Below are positions 13,082 to 30,407 of a stretch of 31,289 nucleotides of DNA, piece after piece. Position 1 is the first letter of the stretch. Every line of letters starts with the position of its first letter. This DNA is from a virus. The notes below the pieces were generated by a model that was given only the letters and a program-made list of their open reading frames with translations, did no database searches and was not told the DNA's origin. The position numbers were made by a program, and so were the translations under genes. The DNA lies in the IMG/VR virus record IMGVR_UViG_3300032083_001708, positions 1 to 31,289 of that record. One strand, 5' to 3'.

Positions 13082-14664
13082 TATTGATTAATCCCATAAA
13101 ATTTTGTACCTAATCTTGGAGCTTTGTCGTGAATAACTTGGTATCCAATTGTTGCAAGTATATGTCTTGGTACTCTAGCACCAACTTCTGTTTCATAAGT
13201 TGATGATTGGTCTATCGAGTAAGATATTGATTTAATATATCCCATTAATTCTTTATTTTCTTTTCCATATAATTCACCATATCGGAGTTTAACCAATGGT
13301 GGTTTCATTCTATTTCCATAACCTACCGCACCTTCATTAATATATTCAGGATAACACATTGATGTTAACCTATCTAATTTTTTATATATATTTCCCAATT
13401 CTTCTTTTGTCTGTGCCATAAGTTTTAAAGTCATTGATATTTCTCTTTCAGCTCTCTCATAAGTCCAAACAGGTTCACTTCTTCCAAGATAATTATGTGG
13501 AGCGTAAGATGGTGAGATGTTTTCTGTCAATCCTTCAATAAATGCTCTAAAAAATATATAAGCATTAGTTCTCATATCTTTAAAATAGAATGGCATTCCA
13601 TTTTTTTCTTCTTCTAAAATATCTCTACCAGATTCACCATAAGCGTCTTTCAAAGTTTGTTGAGCCATTGGGTTTTCAGGAAGATTATCTCTGAAAGTTA
13701 CATTGGTAAATAAATCACCACCTTCTGATTTTTCTTTTATAGTTACTGATTCACCTGTTAAATTACTTTTTAATTTATTTCCAAATTCTTTTAAAGAATC
13801 ACCAAATCCTCCTCCTGGCACACCACCAGTTGCAGTGGCTATACTTAAACCATCTGTGAATGATTTATTAATATCATAAGGAACATTTCCACCAATTAAA
13901 TTAGTATTTCCGTATTGGTCTCCACCAAATAAAGTACTCAAACCAGGTTCTGTTTTATCAAATAAACTAACAGGAACTCCACCAGCTCTAAATCCAGCTT
14001 GTATTATAGTTGATAATGGATTGTATAACTCCTTAAACCTTTGACTTGATTGTCTAATTTCACCACCTATATCAAGATATTGAACACTTGAATTTCTTCC
14101 AAGAAAATTTTGTTTGAGTGCAAAAGCTACACCTGCAGGTGATGTTAAAAATTTACTTAATCTAATAGCATCAGTTAATAATCTATTTATTGGAAAATCT
14201 CTACCACCAAAATTATTTAATCTTCCATTTATTCCACTATCTGAACTTGAAGGTATTTTACTAACTATATATGGTTCTTTTCCTGCATCTTTTAAAAATT
14301 CTGTTGAATCAAAAGATTGTGTTGGACCATTACCTAAAAATTTACCAACCATACTAATTACTGATGTTCTTGATGAATTTGCAAGTCCAAATCTACCATC
14401 TTGAGGGTTTCTTATATTTAATTTATCTCTACTTGCATTTGGATAATTATAACCAACACCATCAATTGGTGTATGGTTTGGATTATATAATGTTGACCAA
14501 TTCAACCCATCAAGTGGTGATTCTCCTATTAATTCACTTAATGGAGGTCTAGTGAATTTTGTTAACTTTGTATCATTTACACCAGTTATTCTATTTGATG
14601 AAAATGATTCAATATTATTTTTTAATTCTTCTTGAAATACACTTTTTAGATTTGATAAACTCAC
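13081..14664 (-). CDS. Baseplate tail-tube initiator-like protein
   Basis: 527 aa. The N-terminal 330 residues are Gly/Asn/Pro/Ser-rich with little regular structure. The C-terminal 190 residues look globular: MPFYFKDMRTNAYIFFRAFI, SYAPHNYLGRSEPVWTYERA, then a helix M-A-Q-T-K-E-E-L-G-N-I-Y-K-K-L-D-R-L-T and strands ending RHILATIGYQVIH. This resembles proteins with a tail-tube-like fold that cap the hub and start tube growth (T4 gp48/gp54, gpU-like). It has a GTG start (14664) that overlaps the tape-measure TAG stop by one base, preceded by GGGGA. Its position between tape measure and LysM protein supports a tube/baseplate adaptor. The family name is inference from recalled patterns. Confidence 0.6.
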   Translation of the reverse strand: MSLSNLKSVFQEELKNNIESFSSNRITGVNDTKLTKFTRPPLSELIGESPLDGLNWSTLYNPNHTPIDGVGYNYPNASRDKLNIRNPQDGRFGLANSSRTSVISMVGKFLGNGPTQSFDSTEFLKDAGKEPYIVSKIPSSSDSGINGRLNNFGGRDFPINRLLTDAIRLSKFLTSPAGVAFALKQNFLGRNSSVQYLDIGGEIRQSSQRFKELYNPLSTIIQAGFRAGGVPVSLFDKTEPGLSTLFGGDQYGNTNLIGGNVPYDINKSFTDGLSIATATGGVPGGGFGDSLKEFGNKLKSNLTGESVTIKEKSEGGDLFTNVTFRDNLPENPMAQQTLKDAYGESGRDILEEEKNGMPFYFKDMRTNAYIFFRAFIEGLTENISPSYAPHNYLGRSEPVWTYERAEREISMTLKLMAQTKEELGNIYKKLDRLTSMCYPEYINEGAVGYGNRMKPPLVKLRYGELYGKENKELMGYIKSISYSIDQSSTYETEVGARVPRHILATIGYQVIHDKAPRLGTKFYGINQ

Positions 14665-16610
14665 TATAAATCCCCAAGACCTGCTACCATTCTATCAGGT
14701 CCTCTTTTTGTTTCATTTATTAAAGTTTCCATTTTTTCTTCAATATTTCTTAATAGTCCAACCGTTTCTTTATTATTAACACCATTAATAGATAAACTAG
14801 CTTCTGGTCCAGATGCAAAATCATTAACAGCTGTAGTTCCAAATACCGTATCTTTTGGATTTGTCTTTAACATTTTACCCGTTGGTGTAACGACTAAATG
14901 AGAGCCTCCTGAACTTTTGAAATCATTAACATTACCCGTACCATCATCAGGAGTAAGTGCGGCCGTAATTGTACCTGCTGCTGCAGCACCCAAAGGACCA
15001 CCCGCCATAAATCCTAAACCTGTCATTGCAGTTACAAGTAAGTTATTTAAAGAAAATAAATTAGCTAAACCTGTAAAAAATTTAAATATTTTACCAACAC
15101 CTTTTACTATCTTTGTTACAGTATCAGCAAAATTTTCTATAAATGTTTTTACTCTTGCAATATTTTCCTCTGTCATAAACTCTTCGCTAAATGCTTTAAC
15201 AGCATCTTCTAAAGGTTGTCCAAATTTTAATAAAAATTGTGCACCTAATTCTTTAACTTGATTCGTAATATTAGTTAATGCTGACATTCCATCCTTACCA
15301 GCTAAATCTGCAAATGATTTTTGTTGAACGACTGATTTATCTTGAGCAGATATTAATTTTTCCATTTGTTTAACTTCTAATCCAAGTGATTTAGCTAATG
15401 ATTTCCTTTGTAATACATTTAATTTATTAAATTCAGCTTGTCCTCCAAGTTGTTTTGTGACATTCTCCATCATACCATTTAAATCACCACTTAACGCTAA
15501 TTCTCTAGCTTTTTGGAAATTTAAATCTTTACCAATCATTACCGATGCTTCAATTTCACTTGTTAATGATGTTTGGAAGTCTAATAAACTGTCTGCTATA
15601 CTATCAACTGTTGATAAATTTAATCCAAGTTGTCTAGCTTTTATTGCGGCTTTTGTAATACTTTCAAGATTATCTGCTCCAAATTTAGCAATTGTTTCGG
15701 CACTTTCGGCTATATCTTTCATTACCGCATTTGGATTAACATTGTTTTGTCTAGCTAATTGATATGTGGATTCTGCTAAATGTTCGGCTTGGTCAGCAGT
15801 TAAATTACCAATAGTCATTAATGTACCGAATAATTTTGCACTCTCATCTGTTGATAACCCTAATGCCACAGCAGTATCTAAAATTTGGTCAGGAAGTCTT
15901 GAAGCTGAATCTAATGTAATACCAAAATCTTTTGATAAAGTATCTACCAATGTTACCACATCAGATGTTCCTTTTCCAAGTGAAATCACATCAATAGAGG
16001 CTTGCTGCATATTTTTTTGAAATTCACCACCTGAAGTTCCCATTACACCAAATTGTTTACCTAATGCATCAGTTATTGCAGATGCAAATTTTAAAGCTTT
16101 AACAAGTAAACCAGTTATTAAAAGAACACCACCCGCAACAGGTCCTACTTTTTTCATATGTTTTAAAAAACCACCAGCCTTTGATGCCATACCACCAGTT
16201 AACTTGTCACCAACCTCTGTAGCCAGATTTACTTTATTTTGAACTTTTTCTGCTGCATCTCTTGTTTTTAATAACTTAAGCTGGTTTTCAATTGAATTTC
16301 GTTCACCAACTGACTTAGCTTTAAGTAATTTTTTCTCCAACGATGCTTGCATTCTTTTAGATTTAGCCACATCTATGTTACCATCTAATATCTCTTTACC
16401 TAAATCAGCAACAGCACCCAATTGTTTACCATTCATTTTATTGGCTTTTCTACTATCGTGAAGACCTTGCAGTGTTTCTGCAACATTGTTTGTCATCTTT
16501 TTTGTAAAACCATCAGAATCTTTTAATCCTTGATTAAAACGGTCTATATTAAGATTCATCTCTTCAATAATATTACGAGCTTCTTTTAATGTCTCTGTAC
16601 CTTTGGCCAT
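14664..16610 (-). CDS. Tail tape measure protein
   Basis: 648 aa. Long helical protein with the usual tape-measure make-up: Lys/Glu-rich N-terminal helices (1-150), a hydrophobic segment at 155-179 (GPVAGGVLLITGLLVKALKF), a long alpha-helical middle, a second hydrophobic stretch at 518-552 (FMAGGPLGAAAAGTITAAL), and a C-terminal tail LVVTPTGKMLKTNPKDTVFG that recurs at tape-measure C-termini. It sets tail length and probably exits at injection. At about 0.15 nm per residue it predicts a tail near 95-100 nm, similar to T4 (gp29, 590 aa). It lies one small gene downstream of the frameshifting chaperone locus, the standard position. Confidence 0.85.
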   Translation of the reverse strand: MAKGTETLKEARNIIEEMNLNIDRFNQGLKDSDGFTKKMTNNVAETLQGLHDSRKANKMNGKQLGAVADLGKEILDGNIDVAKSKRMQASLEKKLLKAKSVGERNSIENQLKLLKTRDAAEKVQNKVNLATEVGDKLTGGMASKAGGFLKHMKKVGPVAGGVLLITGLLVKALKFASAITDALGKQFGVMGTSGGEFQKNMQQASIDVISLGKGTSDVVTLVDTLSKDFGITLDSASRLPDQILDTAVALGLSTDESAKLFGTLMTIGNLTADQAEHLAESTYQLARQNNVNPNAVMKDIAESAETIAKFGADNLESITKAAIKARQLGLNLSTVDSIADSLLDFQTSLTSEIEASVMIGKDLNFQKARELALSGDLNGMMENVTKQLGGQAEFNKLNVLQRKSLAKSLGLEVKQMEKLISAQDKSVVQQKSFADLAGKDGMSALTNITNQVKELGAQFLLKFGQPLEDAVKAFSEEFMTEENIARVKTFIENFADTVTKIVKGVGKIFKFFTGLANLFSLNNLLVTAMTGLGFMAGGPLGAAAAGTITAALTPDDGTGNVNDFKSSGGSHLVVTPTGKMLKTNPKDTVFGTTAVNDFASGPEASLSINGVNNKETVGLLRNIEEKMETLINETKRGPDRMVAGLGDL

Positions 16611-16611
16611 T

Positions 16612-16860
16612 TTATATAAAATCCTTTATTGTAAATTTAGATAATTTAATTGGTTTTTTACCTAAAGATTGTAAATCTTTATTGATTCTATCTTCTGTAT
16701 CTTGTGTGAGTTTATTTAAGTTACTTAAATCTTTGGTAAGAACTTTGTCTTTTTTTAATTTATTAACAATATTTTTATCTTTAATAAGTTTTAATAATTT
16801 TGAAAAAAATCCCTCTGCGATGAGATTTGATTGATTCATATATGATTTTTTCTTTGACAC
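16612..16860 (-). CDS. Small basic helical protein before the tape measure gene
   Basis: 82 aa, GTG start at 16860 with AGGAG about 8 nt upstream. Very rich in Lys and Leu: NLIAEGFFSKLLKLIKDKN, then KLKKDKVLTKDLSNLNKL, amphipathic and probably helical. It ends 1 nt before the tape-measure ATG, so the two are likely co-translated, and the repeated 16-bp upstream element lies 27 nt ahead of it. A tail-assembly or tape-measure-binding role is suggested by position only. I know no function for the family. Confidence 0.55.
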   Translation of the reverse strand: MSKKKSYMNQSNLIAEGFFSKLLKLIKDKNIVNKLKKDKVLTKDLSNLNKLTQDTEDRINKDLQSLGKKPIKLSKFTIKDFI

Positions 16861-16916: not shown

Positions 16917-17156
16917 TTACCTTTTAAATCTTGGATTCATTGGTGGTTTTGAAGATTTTGCTTTCTGATTAGCCTTTTCTATTTGTTTGTTTTCTTCTGT
17001 GCGAGTATCAACTAATTGTTTATAATAGAAGTTTCTTAAATATATAGGCATGTTGTATACATCGGAATGTACAAAACCTTTTCCGTAATACATTAATTGA
17101 AATATTTGTTCGTGAAGTTTGGGTTTGTCTTTAGGACTCAGGCCAAAAAAACCCAA
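16917..17156 (-). CDS. Downstream frame of the tail-chaperone/gp26-like gene (probable frameshift extension)
   Basis: An open frame of 79 codons (HEQIFQLMYYGKGFVHSDVY, NMPIYLRNFYYKQL, basic tail ending NPRFKR). The only start-like codon upstream of the conserved part is a TTG at 17156, inside the run GGGTTTTTTTGG and without any Shine-Dalgarno sequence; the first ATG is at the LMYYGK segment and also lacks one. The frame is +1 relative to the gene above and overlaps its last 26 nt. A +1 slip on the 7-T run would join 243 upstream residues to 75 residues from this frame (about 318 aa). This is the layout of tail assembly chaperones (G/GT type) ahead of tape measure genes. Alternatively it is a separate small gene. 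Confidence 0.7.
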   Translation of the reverse strand: MGFFGLSPKDKPKLHEQIFQLMYYGKGFVHSDVYNMPIYLRNFYYKQLVDTRTEENKQIEKANQKAKSSKPPMNPRFKR

Positions 17157-17874
17157 CCGTCATCGGTATATCTACCTTGACGGACTCACCTCCTATCTCT
17201 ATCTCTTGTGATAATTCAATGTCTGGTGCTACTTTTGAAATTTCTTTTCTTAAATGCATTGAATCTCTTGCGAGTAGATTTTGAACAAAGTTGTTTATGG
17301 TAGATTGAGATTCATCACCATCAACTGATGTAATGGTATGTCGTAATCTCGTGGTTAATTCAGGTGAAACATCTGAACCTGTTTTTTTAGAGGCTTGTAA
17401 TTCTTCATCTATTACTTTTTCTTCTGCTCCCGTTAACAATTTAAAAGTAACTTTTTTCTTTGATATTGGTAAGGTAACTTCAAAGTTATTTTCTGAGACA
17501 CCTTCTGGTAATTTTTTAAATGGACAATCAGCTAAATTGAATGTATGAGTTAAAACTTCACCTGATTTAGGATTAGTAACTTCACAAGGATACTCAGGCC
17601 CATATGCTAATATTCTAGCTGCAACCATTACAGCATTTTTGTCACCTAATATCATATCACCTTGTTTTACGCCAGGCGTTAATATTAAAGAATCTATTAA
17701 CCTATCAATCACAACACCCTTTTTAATAAGATTCTGTGAAGTAAGAATATCTTCTTCTTTAGCTGTCATATATTTAATTTCTACTTTTCCATCAGAACAA
17801 GGGTGTTCTTTTGGATATAACTTACCCTCACTAGGTAAATCAATTACTTCACTTGGGAACTTGTTTTCTGCCAT
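17131..17874 (-). CDS. 26: gp26-like baseplate hub / tail assembly chaperone protein
   Basis: 247 aa. Begins MAENKFPSEVIDLPSEGKLY, with KYMTAKEEDILTSQNLIKKG (about 34-53) and KNAVMVAARILAYG (about 79-92), a pattern I recognise from proteins annotated as gp26 in marine T4-like phages. The body is a beta-rich N-terminal part followed by a helical region after residue 165 (TGAEEKVIDEELQASKK). The last codons, MTVGFFWPES, cover a 7-T run where a +1 slip would extend it into the next frame. In long-tailed phages the gene in this position makes a short and a frameshifted chaperone that load the tape measure. Both the hub and the chaperone name are plausible. Starts ATG at 17874 with GGAGG upstream. 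Confidence 0.75.
   Translation of the reverse strand: MAENKFPSEVIDLPSEGKLYPKEHPCSDGKVEIKYMTAKEEDILTSQNLIKKGVVIDRLIDSLILTPGVKQGDMILGDKNAVMVAARILAYGPEYPCEVTNPKSGEVLTHTFNLADCPFKKLPEGVSENNFEVTLPISKKKVTFKLLTGAEEKVIDEELQASKKTGSDVSPELTTRLRHTITSVDGDESQSTINNFVQNLLARDSMHLRKEISKVAPDIELSQEIEIGGESVKVDIPMTVGFFWPES
17145..17151 (-). other. Candidate programmed +1 (or -2) frameshift site, T7 run
   Basis: On the minus strand the zero frame reads GTT GGG TTT TTT TGG CCT. A Phe-tRNA on the second TTT can slip one base forward to TTT with full pairing while the slow TGG codon waits, and the next codon becomes GGC of the downstream open frame. A -2 slip reaches the same frame with one extra Phe. A -1 slip stops at once (TTG GCC TGA). 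The upstream frame ends only five codons after the run. Confidence 0.6.
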
Positions 17875-18087: not shown

Positions 18088-18567
18088 TTAAACTTCTATT
18101 GCTCGTCTAAACCAACCTAACCAGAATTTCTCTTGATTTGGTTTGTCTATAACTATGTTAGCAAATCGTAACACACGATATGCTCTTACTACATCTACAC
18201 CTATTTTTTGTACAGCATTTAATGTAGCTGGTCCTAAACCACCATCTACTTCAATTTTGTTTCTATTCTTAGAATTAGCAGCCTGTTGTAATACCTTAAC
18301 AGCTCCTCTTCTTCCAAAATTAACACACATATCAAAATAAATATGTCTTAATTGTGAGGGAATATCATCACACTTACCTCGTCTCCAATAATCTGTATGA
18401 TATATTTTTTTAGCTTGTTCTTTTGTGAGATTTTTAATGTCCACATCAGGATACCATCTTTTAGCGATTCCATATTTGGTTTCACCACCAGCATCATCAG
18501 GGTCGTTTACATATCCACCTTCGTGGTCTAAAACTATATCTATTATTTCTTCAAATGTTGTTTTCAT
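18088..18567 (-). CDS. GH108-family muramidase (phage lysozyme)
   Basis: 159 aa from the chosen start. The catalytic-site motif HEGGYVNDPDDAGGETKYGI lies near the N-terminus, with the catalytic Glu in EGG, followed by the Y-W-R-R-G-K-C-D-D and D-M-C-V-N-F-G-R-R-G segments and a C-terminal G-L-G-P-A-T-L-N-A-V peptidoglycan-binding-like part. The family cleaves the MurNAc-GlcNAc bond. No signal peptide or membrane anchor. Start: an upstream in-frame ATG at 18579 contains the GGAG used as ribosome-binding site, so ATG 18567 (GGAG plus 6 nt) is preferred. It stands among tail genes, just after the tube gene, so it may be either the endolysin or a tail-associated lysozyme; no holin is visible. Confidence 0.88.
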   Translation of the reverse strand: MKTTFEEIIDIVLDHEGGYVNDPDDAGGETKYGIAKRWYPDVDIKNLTKEQAKKIYHTDYWRRGKCDDIPSQLRHIYFDMCVNFGRRGAVKVLQQAANSKNRNKIEVDGGLGPATLNAVQKIGVDVVRAYRVLRFANIVIDKPNQEKFWLGWFRRAIEV

Positions 18568-18574
18568 TTTCATC

Positions 18575-18590
18575 TCCATATATAAATATA
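18575..18590 (-). promoter_or_regulatory. Repeated 16-bp upstream element, copy 6 (before muramidase)
   Basis: Minus strand TATATTTATATATGGA, differing at the last bases from the other copies. It directly follows the T-run of the terminator at 18601-18632 and ends 7 nt before the chosen ATG, overlapping the GGAG ribosome-binding site. If it is a -10 type element the leader would be only about 5-10 nt, which is unusual. Confidence 0.5.
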
Positions 18591-18655: not shown

Positions 18656-19144
18656 TTAGAATTTAAGTATTGCGTAATCATATCGTAATGTTAATGATAT
18701 TTCAACAGGGTCTGATGAGTCAAATGCTAAATCACCAAAATTAGCTGATTGGATATACGCACCTTTTAATTCCCATTCTTCAACCACAGCTCCAACTGGG
18801 TCTAAAAGGTTAAATGTAATATCTTTTTTGTAAAAATCAGCGTATCCATCTCTACCAGTAACTGATTCGTGGTGTAATCTAACCCACTCAATCACTTGCT
18901 GTGCAGCTGATGGAACAACCGGGTCGTATAACATAATTTCTAAAGGTTGCCATCTTGACTTACCTTTAACATATCTTGTTACATTCATATGTTCTAATAC
19001 AACTTCGTCTGATTCAATTGATGGCCTGTTCATTGACTTAATTAAATAAGCATTGATACCATCTATTTGCATTATAAATCTGTTTTTGAGCTTTGGCTCA
19101 AAGGGGGTAAACATTATATCTTGTGGTTCTAATAATTCAGCCAT
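18656..19144 (-). CDS. 19: Tail tube protein (gp19)
   Basis: 162 aa, the T4 gp19 length (163). The sequence has the usual tube-protein order: NRFIMQIDGINAYLIKSMNR, a K-G-K-S-R-W-Q-P-L-E-I-M-L-Y-D motif, W-V-R-L-H-H-E, then GAYIQSANFGDLAFDSSDP and the closing strand ISLTLRYDYAILKF. Hexameric rings of this protein stack to form the inner tube that the sheath drives through the envelope. AGGAG precedes the ATG at 19144. The gene stands alone between two terminators with the repeated 16-bp element upstream, consistent with its high copy number. Confidence 0.93.
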   Translation of the reverse strand: MAELLEPQDIMFTPFEPKLKNRFIMQIDGINAYLIKSMNRPSIESDEVVLEHMNVTRYVKGKSRWQPLEIMLYDPVVPSAAQQVIEWVRLHHESVTGRDGYADFYKKDITFNLLDPVGAVVEEWELKGAYIQSANFGDLAFDSSDPVEISLTLRYDYAILKF

Positions 19145-29271: not shown

Positions 29272-30312
29272 TTATTTAACTAAACCAGCAAGTTTTTTGA
29301 ACCTGTTAGCAACTTGAACCTCTTCAGAAATCACTTTACGAGATTCTGTAGATGGTTTAGTTGATGCAACAGGAGCACTAGCTGATTCACTAATTGATTT
29401 TTTTGTTACGATTGAACTATTATCACCAAACTGTTCTGCAAGTGTAGAATAAACAAGTTTAATCTCTCTTGTAGTTTGAGCTCTGTCAAATGTTTCAACC
29501 ACTTTAAGTTTTTGATTGTTATCTAATGAATAAGATTTAAATAATTTATTAGTAAATAACAATTTAGCATTCAGAATGTTAACTTCGTGAAGTTTGTCTT
29601 TCAAGAAATGAACTGCTTCTTTGTACTCTTTTAATTCAGCTTCTAAAGAAGATTCTTTCATACCAGTTTTACCTTTACCGATACCTGATGATACATCAGT
29701 ATTATCTTCTTTATTGTCACCTTTACCAATTCCAGATGATTTGTCAAGTTCTTCATCGACTTCGTCTTTGTCGTCCTCGTCATCTTCTTCAGTAAGAGCA
29801 GCTTCATCGATTTCATACTCTTCTTCAACAGTTTCTTCAGATTCATGCATACCTTCTTCAGCTTCATCTTCATCATCGTCTTCAGTTAATTCAGACTCTA
29901 ACTCTTTAATGATAGCTTCTAAGTCAAGATTGCTTTCATCCATTTCTTCATCTTCGTCATGCATTCCTTCTTCAGCGTCGTCGTGCTCGCCTTCGTCATG
30001 CATACCTTCTTCACGTTCATCACCTTCTTCAGCTTCGTCATCGTGTTCACCTTCCATAGGTGCACGCATTTCTTCAGCTTCATCATCGTGTTCACCTTCT
30101 TCACGCTCTTCACCTTCTTCATGCTCACCTTCTTCTTTTTCATCATGACCAAATTCTTCAACTTCGTCATCTTCTTCTTCTTTAAGTTTAGCAGAAAGCA
30201 TAGATTTGATTTGGGGTGTGAATGCTTCTTCTAAAGCCATTTTAGCATTTTCTAACGCAGTTTCTCTAACTGCTTTAGCATCTGCTATAGCTTCTTTTAA
30301 AATATCTCCCAT
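29272..30312 (-). CDS. 22: Prohead core scaffold protein (gp22-like)
   Basis: 346 aa from ATG 30312, chosen because GAGGAG lies seven nt upstream; a longer in-frame GTG at 30387 is rejected. N-terminal helix MGDILKEAIADAKAVRETAL leads to an extremely acidic Glu/Asp/His/Gly low-complexity region (about 48-200, repeats of the EGEHDDEAEE and EEGMHDE kind). The C-terminal part, LKEYKEAVHFLKDKLHEVN then N-A-K-L-L-F-T-N-K-L-F and Q-K-L-K-V-V-E-T-F-D-R-A, is the conserved helical domain of gp22 scaffolds. It should form the internal core on which gp23 assembles and then be digested by the prohead protease, which is not in this window. It lies immediately upstream of gp23, as in T4. Confidence 0.88.
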   Translation of the reverse strand: MGDILKEAIADAKAVRETALENAKMALEEAFTPQIKSMLSAKLKEEEDDEVEEFGHDEKEEGEHEEGEEREEGEHDDEAEEMRAPMEGEHDDEAEEGDEREEGMHDEGEHDDAEEGMHDEDEEMDESNLDLEAIIKELESELTEDDDEDEAEEGMHESEETVEEEYEIDEAALTEEDDEDDKDEVDEELDKSSGIGKGDNKEDNTDVSSGIGKGKTGMKESSLEAELKEYKEAVHFLKDKLHEVNILNAKLLFTNKLFKSYSLDNNQKLKVVETFDRAQTTREIKLVYSTLAEQFGDNSSIVTKKSISESASAPVASTKPSTESRKVISEEVQVANRFKKLAGLVK

Positions 30313-30376
30313 GATATTTCTCCTCAATGTATTTTTTGGAATAAGTTTATTTGGAAACTTAATAAATGTTAAGTTA

Positions 30377-30407
30377 TATTTAGACACCGTAAAAGGGTAG
30401 ACGGTGT
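30377..30407 (-). promoter_or_regulatory. Leader of the scaffold/capsid unit: hairpin and CTAAATA box
   Basis: The 135-nt gap upstream of the scaffold gene has an inverted repeat ACACCGT (30384-30390) with ACGGTGT (30401-30407), loop 10 nt, followed on the minus strand by CTAAATA (30383-30377), which resembles a T4-type late box in the sense direction. There is no T-run after the hairpin, so it is not a terminator. None of the seven 16-bp elements lies here. Confidence 0.4.

Follow-up and report, generated by a model that had tools for sequence, protein, structure and literature searches.

Frameshifting in tail assembly chaperone genes has been described as widespread among long-tailed phages, with T4 as the exception; depending on the phage, the known shifts are by -1, -2 or +1 (PMC5009743). 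The T4 proteins gp26 and gp51 are described as hub assembly chaperones in a review of the T4 tail (PMC3004832), and Sullivan et al. 2010 reported cyanophage gp51 without the first ~200 residues (PMC3037559). The PRFect paper (PMC10885494) credits Vladimirov et al. 2022 with the identification of the T4-like tail assembly chaperones (gp26/gp51), and its summary of that work states that some T4-like phages have a short gene plus a long, fused one instead of a frameshift; the Adele paper (PMC12846349) reports poly-T -1 signals in T4-like chaperone genes. Going by these papers, both the identity of the chaperones and the -1 signals were already known. In this literature no description was found of the +1 form in the gp26/gp51 family, of the missing T ahead of the run or of a change of direction at one junction; Vladimirov et al. 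2022, known through citing papers, may mention +1 cases. What is new here is the +1 direction in the gp26/gp51 family and its contrast with the -1 relatives.

The locus lies in a 31,289-nucleotide stretch of DNA from a marine T4-like phage (the window; positions 1 to 31,289 of IMG/VR record IMGVR_UViG_3300032083_001708). A preliminary description had pointed to a frameshift on a T7 run in a gp26-like gene, and its coordinates, frames and run were all confirmed, on the minus strand. The features of the locus are as follows.

18656-19144, minus strand: tail tube (gp19) gene, upstream (phrog_4542, E 7.6e-30)
17131-17874, minus strand: ORF1, gp26-like, 247 aa, putative short chaperone form (G-like) (PF12322, phrog_150, AlphaFold2 model)
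17143-17154 (17154-17143), minus strand: proposed shift site GGG_TTT_TTT_TGG, with the T7 run at 17151-17145, kept in relatives
17131-17133, minus strand: frame-0 TAA ending the short product (from the sequence)
16917-17159, minus strand: ORF2, open +1 frame, gp51-like C-terminal extension (T-like), 75 codons after the shift
16917-17874, minus strand: predicted long product, 318 aa, with one +1 shift (TTTT read as one Phe)
16612-16860, minus strand: 82-aa ORF beginning with GTG, located after ORF2 and ahead of the tape measure gene
14664-16610, minus strand: downstream gene for the tape measure protein (match to phrog_28, tail length tape measure, at E 9.6e-5)

On the minus strand GGG stands directly before the T-run and GG CCT directly after it, and in frame 0 ORF1 ends TTT TTT TGG CCT GAG TCC TAA, with the stop at 17133-17131. 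The +1 frame opens past a TGA at 17162-17160, crosses the T-run and extends to 16917. Because the two frames overlap by only 29 nt, any shift must fall inside these 29 nt. The sole new-frame start codon near the junction is the TTG at 17156-17154, which has no Shine-Dalgarno sequence at start-codon spacing, and the product sizes proposed earlier also hold, with 247 aa for ORF1 and 318 residues by the +1 reading. A homopolymer sequencing error was ruled out, since a 99% identical IMG/VR contig (L008) and more distant contigs carry the same T-run. A strong Shine-Dalgarno-like sequence, ATAGGAGGTG (17187-17196, minus strand), lies within ORF1, where it codes for IGG, about 36 nt 5' of the slip site; its spacing fits neither a known stimulator nor a start codon.

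Judged from the sequence comparisons below, the gp26-like gene is very probably a tail assembly chaperone gene that gives two proteins by a +1 slip; we infer the occurrence of slippage, its efficiency and the functions of the proteins. Most ribosomes would read ORF1 to its stop and produce the 247-aa short form. In a fraction of ribosomes, the tRNA-Phe on a TTT of GGG_TTT_TTT_TGG would slide forward by one base to a UUU that pairs just as well, before the next codon is decoded, and these ribosomes would go on in the +1 frame to make the 318-aa form with the gp51-like C-terminal domain. By analogy with the lambda G/GT system, the short form would be expected to cover the tape measure protein, and the long form, the rarer of the two, to bring in tail tube subunits by means of its extension.

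The order tail tube, gp26-like gene, ORF2 and tape measure is common to the window and phages SP-15, LIS04, Mel-JY01 and immuto, and in all five, as at G/GT-type loci, two overlapping ORFs lie between the tail tube and tape measure genes. The site had been placed just ahead of the tape measure gene; the downstream gene is indeed the tape measure, but the 82-aa ORF (16860-16612) intervenes, and small ORFs are found at the same position in immuto, SP-15 and Mel-JY01. Between its tail tube and gp26-like genes the window also has a GH108-type lysozyme gene (18088-18579), which is absent at that place in immuto, SP-15, LIS04 and Mel-JY01. Elsewhere in the window, the ORF at 29272-30387 has a long acidic, histidine-containing repeat stretch (EEGEHDDEAEE...) with the look of a prohead core or scaffold protein, and it lies directly upstream of a large ORF (29254-27524) that is probably the major capsid gene.

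ORF1 scores above the curated family threshold of PF12322, T4_baseplate (36.3 bits, cut-off 24.5), and matches the phrog_150 baseplate hub family with an E value of 2.2e-12. ORF2 alone has no family match in Pfam and PHROG searches, and its comparison with the single T4 gp51 sequence is not significant (E 0.33); its profile does align with the cyanophage gp51 profile (hhalign probability 92.5, E 4.8e-7), and phrog_150 and phrog_634 connect T4 gp51 with the cyanophage ORFs. In a 37-row alignment of ORF2, the Y, P and R of YxxPxxxR are invariant in every row. ORF1 and ORF2 were modelled as separate parts. The best matches of the ORF1 model (AlphaFold2, mean pLDDT 89) in a viral fold library include the SP-15 hub protein and other T4-like baseplate hub proteins. 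Among PDB entries only YqbN (3klu, Z 5.0) and the HK97 tail assembly chaperone (2ob9, Z 4.6) exceed Z 4; the next match is at 2.4 and all are below Z 8, so that the modelled likeness of ORF1 to tail assembly chaperone folds is suggestive only. The ORF2 model consists of three helices, with no significant relative in the viral fold library, and a profile search by sequence against solved structures found no match for ORF2. The proposed tie of the gp26-like family to the G/GT chaperones is supported by the homology of ORF2 to the gp51 part and by 3klu and 2ob9 being the only structures above background; the tie itself is not new, having already been made by Vladimirov et al. 2022 according to the citing papers.

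A search of IMG/VR gave at least 599 confirmed relatives, the best 80 of which were kept, and GenBank added seven more phage records; a few loci were cut by contig ends, and the scored set consists of the window and 84 relatives (85 loci). In the window and in 84 of 84 scored relatives, ORF2 spans the end of ORF1 in the +1 frame; nearly all of these relatives also have the T-run, and within the clade the two ORFs are never apart; the relatives thus bear out what the preliminary description expected of them. The most remote scored relative with this layout is Bacillus phage SP-15 (28% protein identity), and the set as a whole takes in phages of Flavobacterium, Microcystis, Streptococcus, Listeria and Bacillus as well as a 484-kb metagenomic phage. 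Nine further loci have a +1 overlap (L215, L216, L218-L224). Differences in ORF2 fall mostly at third codon positions, with the same excess as in ORF1, and at the level of sequence ORF2 is shown to be under purifying selection. Both this bias and the retention of the new frame in all scored relatives argue that the +1 frame is not due to chance.

The junctions themselves narrow the point of entry. In 43 of the 85 loci the interval between the new-frame stop and the eighth codon after the slip has no ATG, GTG or TTG, so that only a shift at the Phe-Phe codons or immediately beside them could lead into the new frame. In sixteen loci just 2 nt separate a +1-frame stop from the first Phe codon (as in TAA AC TTTTTTTGG), which argues that the shift must happen at the run. 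The frame-0 stop ends 18-33 nt after the start of the first Phe codon in all loci. As in G/GT-type genes, ORF1 has a conserved slippery sequence close to its 3' end and is paired with a conserved ORF2 that in many loci has no usable start.

The T7 run alone does not discriminate between +1 and -2, and both had been allowed for. Several relatives have broken T-runs and keep the +1 frame, with TTC_TTT_TGG (L032, L072), TTC_TTT_TAC (L055), TTT_CTT_TGG (L001, L215, L216), TTT_CTA_TTC (L003), TTC_TTT_CGT (L004) or TTT_TTA_TGG (L082). Each of these has TTT followed by T or C, so that tRNA-Phe could move one base forward to UUU or UUC, and a two-base backward move breaks the pairing in several of them. 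The relatives therefore favour +1 over -2, as far as sequence comparison goes. The base before the run is also constrained, being G in 42, C in 26, A in 17 and T in none of the 85 +1 loci. When the codon before the run encodes Asn, it is always AAC (24% elsewhere in the gene); for Ser it is AGC in 10 of 12 cases (3% elsewhere in the gene), and for Gly it is GGG in 19 of 20 (6% elsewhere in the gene). Taking one representative per 70% identity cluster, T precedes the run in 0 of 41 representatives versus 15.1 expected from the same residues (log10 P -10.4, a guide rather than an exact probability since the clusters are still related). A T at this position would give T_TTT_TTT, a -1 heptamer, and it is as if -1 slippage were being avoided.

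Two candidate stimulators were considered for the +1 loci. Downstream RNA structure is not general among them (mean z -0.43; window z +0.4), with stems in only some members, such as L045, L052, L058 and L086. The Shine-Dalgarno signal stands only about 22-30 nt 5' of the slip, at no known spacing. Both candidates were rejected.

Three other routes to the new frame need to be weighed against the +1 slip. A -2 slip, known from phage Mu, would add one extra Phe, and on the T7 of the window it re-pairs as well as the +1 slip does; its poor re-pairing in the relatives that keep the frame with TTC_TTT_TGG, TTT_CTT_TGG, TTT_CTA or TTC_TTT_CGT makes it improbable. Slippage by RNA polymerase, dropping one U in some transcripts, might be imagined at a homopolymer of seven T's; since the frame relation survives in relatives whose runs are broken to about four T's or fewer, and since such slippage does not predict the constraint on the base before the run, we consider it extremely unlikely.

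The remaining alternative has ORF2 translated independently, as a protein of its own, by re-initiation or from the weak TTG start (17156) in the overlap. Stop/start overlaps (TGATG, TAAGTATG) do occur in some -1 relatives, and 12 of the 85 +1 loci have a new-frame ATG close to the junction. An ATG belonging to ORF2 had been named in advance as a result that would speak against frameshifting, and none is found near the junction in the other 73. In the 43 loci without any ATG, GTG or TTG, the conserved FFGL lies upstream of any possible start, and T4 gp51 holds both domains in one protein; independent translation of ORF2 is accordingly very unlikely, and a +1 slip remains the preferred reading of the window's junction.

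In P-SSM2, S-PM2, S-SSM7, HTVC008M, Cr30 and phiM12 the gp51 part is encoded by a small -1-frame ORF that either overlaps the end of gp26 or directly adjoins it. Among relatives of S-PM2 gp26, the 80 kept from IMG/VR have NNT_TTT_TTC in 80 of 80 cases, and NNT precedes the Phe pair in all 85 -1 loci (T_TTT_TTY). The region after the -1 site folds strongly, with a mean z of -2.6 and 62% below -2 (versus a mean of -0.43 in the +1 loci). In ten -1 loci a single base separates a -1-frame stop from the first Phe codon, and several -1 loci lack a nearby ATG. The Kyanoviridae-type junction has the anatomy of a canonical -1 site.

Throughout Kyanoviridae and relatives (L125-L204, L098-L103), the invariant NNT_TTT_TTC stands one codon before the gp26 stop, and gp51 is short and in the -1 frame; a hairpin usually follows, as in S-SSM7 (GTATGTCTCA...TGAGACATAC). 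Layouts of the -1 kind also occur in a huge-phage group (L007, L209-L214), in Atu_ph07 and in L207 and L217. The huge-phage group has GGT/AGT_TTT_TTC, a -1 overlap of ~60-70 nt that is longer than in other -1 members, and TAATG or TGATG at the frame-0 stop. The idea that L007 is an exception with an ATG of its own (TAATG) was rejected, because L007 and five relatives have GGT/AGT_TTT_TTC upstream and a -1 frame open to ORF2.

Profile comparison of the fused +1 products with the fused -1 products aligned 286 columns and brought the Phe-Phe junctions together (probability 99.2, E 1.8e-19). In a tree of 74 gp26 domains, 40 of the 43 +1 rows, including the window, form one clade (100/99), and the SP-15 group (+1) joins the huge-phage group (-1) with weak support. 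On this tree, which has long branches and a root that is not fixed, one or two reversals of direction would be needed. It is likely that a homologous chaperone gene reversed its frameshift direction at the same Phe-Phe pair, the window clade and the SP-15 group shifting by +1 and Kyanoviridae and the huge-phage group by -1; the base before the run would act as the direction switch (never T in +1 forms, always T in -1 forms), and hairpins would belong mainly to the -1 forms. With different solutions at one homologous junction, one-base changes offer a way to test how frameshift direction evolves. A practical consequence is that records of marine, Flavobacterium, Listeria and Bacillus phages lack or misannotate the predicted long chaperone form. 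Public annotation has no ORF2 for immuto, LIS04 and SP-15, and for Mel-JY01 it lists ORF2 as a CDS of its own (L001, L002, L005, L006).

Among described frameshifts, that of RF2 (prfB) has the +1 slip of the P-site tRNA proposed here, and some of the +1 relatives have CTT_T. RF2 combines a stop in the A site with a Shine-Dalgarno sequence 3 nt upstream, whereas 81 of the 85 +1 loci have TGG or TAC in the A site, and across the 85 there is neither an A-site stop nor an anti-SD signal next to the slip. The window also departs from the canonical -1 arrangement of a heptamer (X_XXY_YYZ) and a hairpin, with G before its T-run, ORF2 in +1 and a fold z of +0.4. The lambda gpG/gpGT genes and a wider set yield, as is predicted for the window, a short and a long product from a single gene lying just ahead of the tape measure gene, but lambda shifts by -1 and the window would shift by +1; sequence comparison gave no match between the window's family and lambda-type chaperones, which are linked by weak fold similarity to the HK97 chaperone. 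The gp26-gp51 pairs of Kyanoviridae (S-PM2, P-SSM2, HTVC008M) and those of Cr30, phiM12 and Atu_ph07 share the two domains and the Phe-Phe pair with the window. Kyanoviridae and relatives have the -1 frame, T_TTT_TTY and usually a strong hairpin, whereas the window has the +1 frame, with no T before the run and no hairpin. In T4 itself, gp26 and gp51 both belong to PF12322, as does ORF1, and the additional C-terminal part of gp51 has its counterpart in ORF2, by way of cyanophage gp51; T4 encodes the short (gp26) and long (gp51) forms in two genes, whereas the window has a single gene with a probable shift. The comparison suggests that T4-related phages have arrived at three solutions at one homologous junction, a +1 slip, a -1 slip and two genes.
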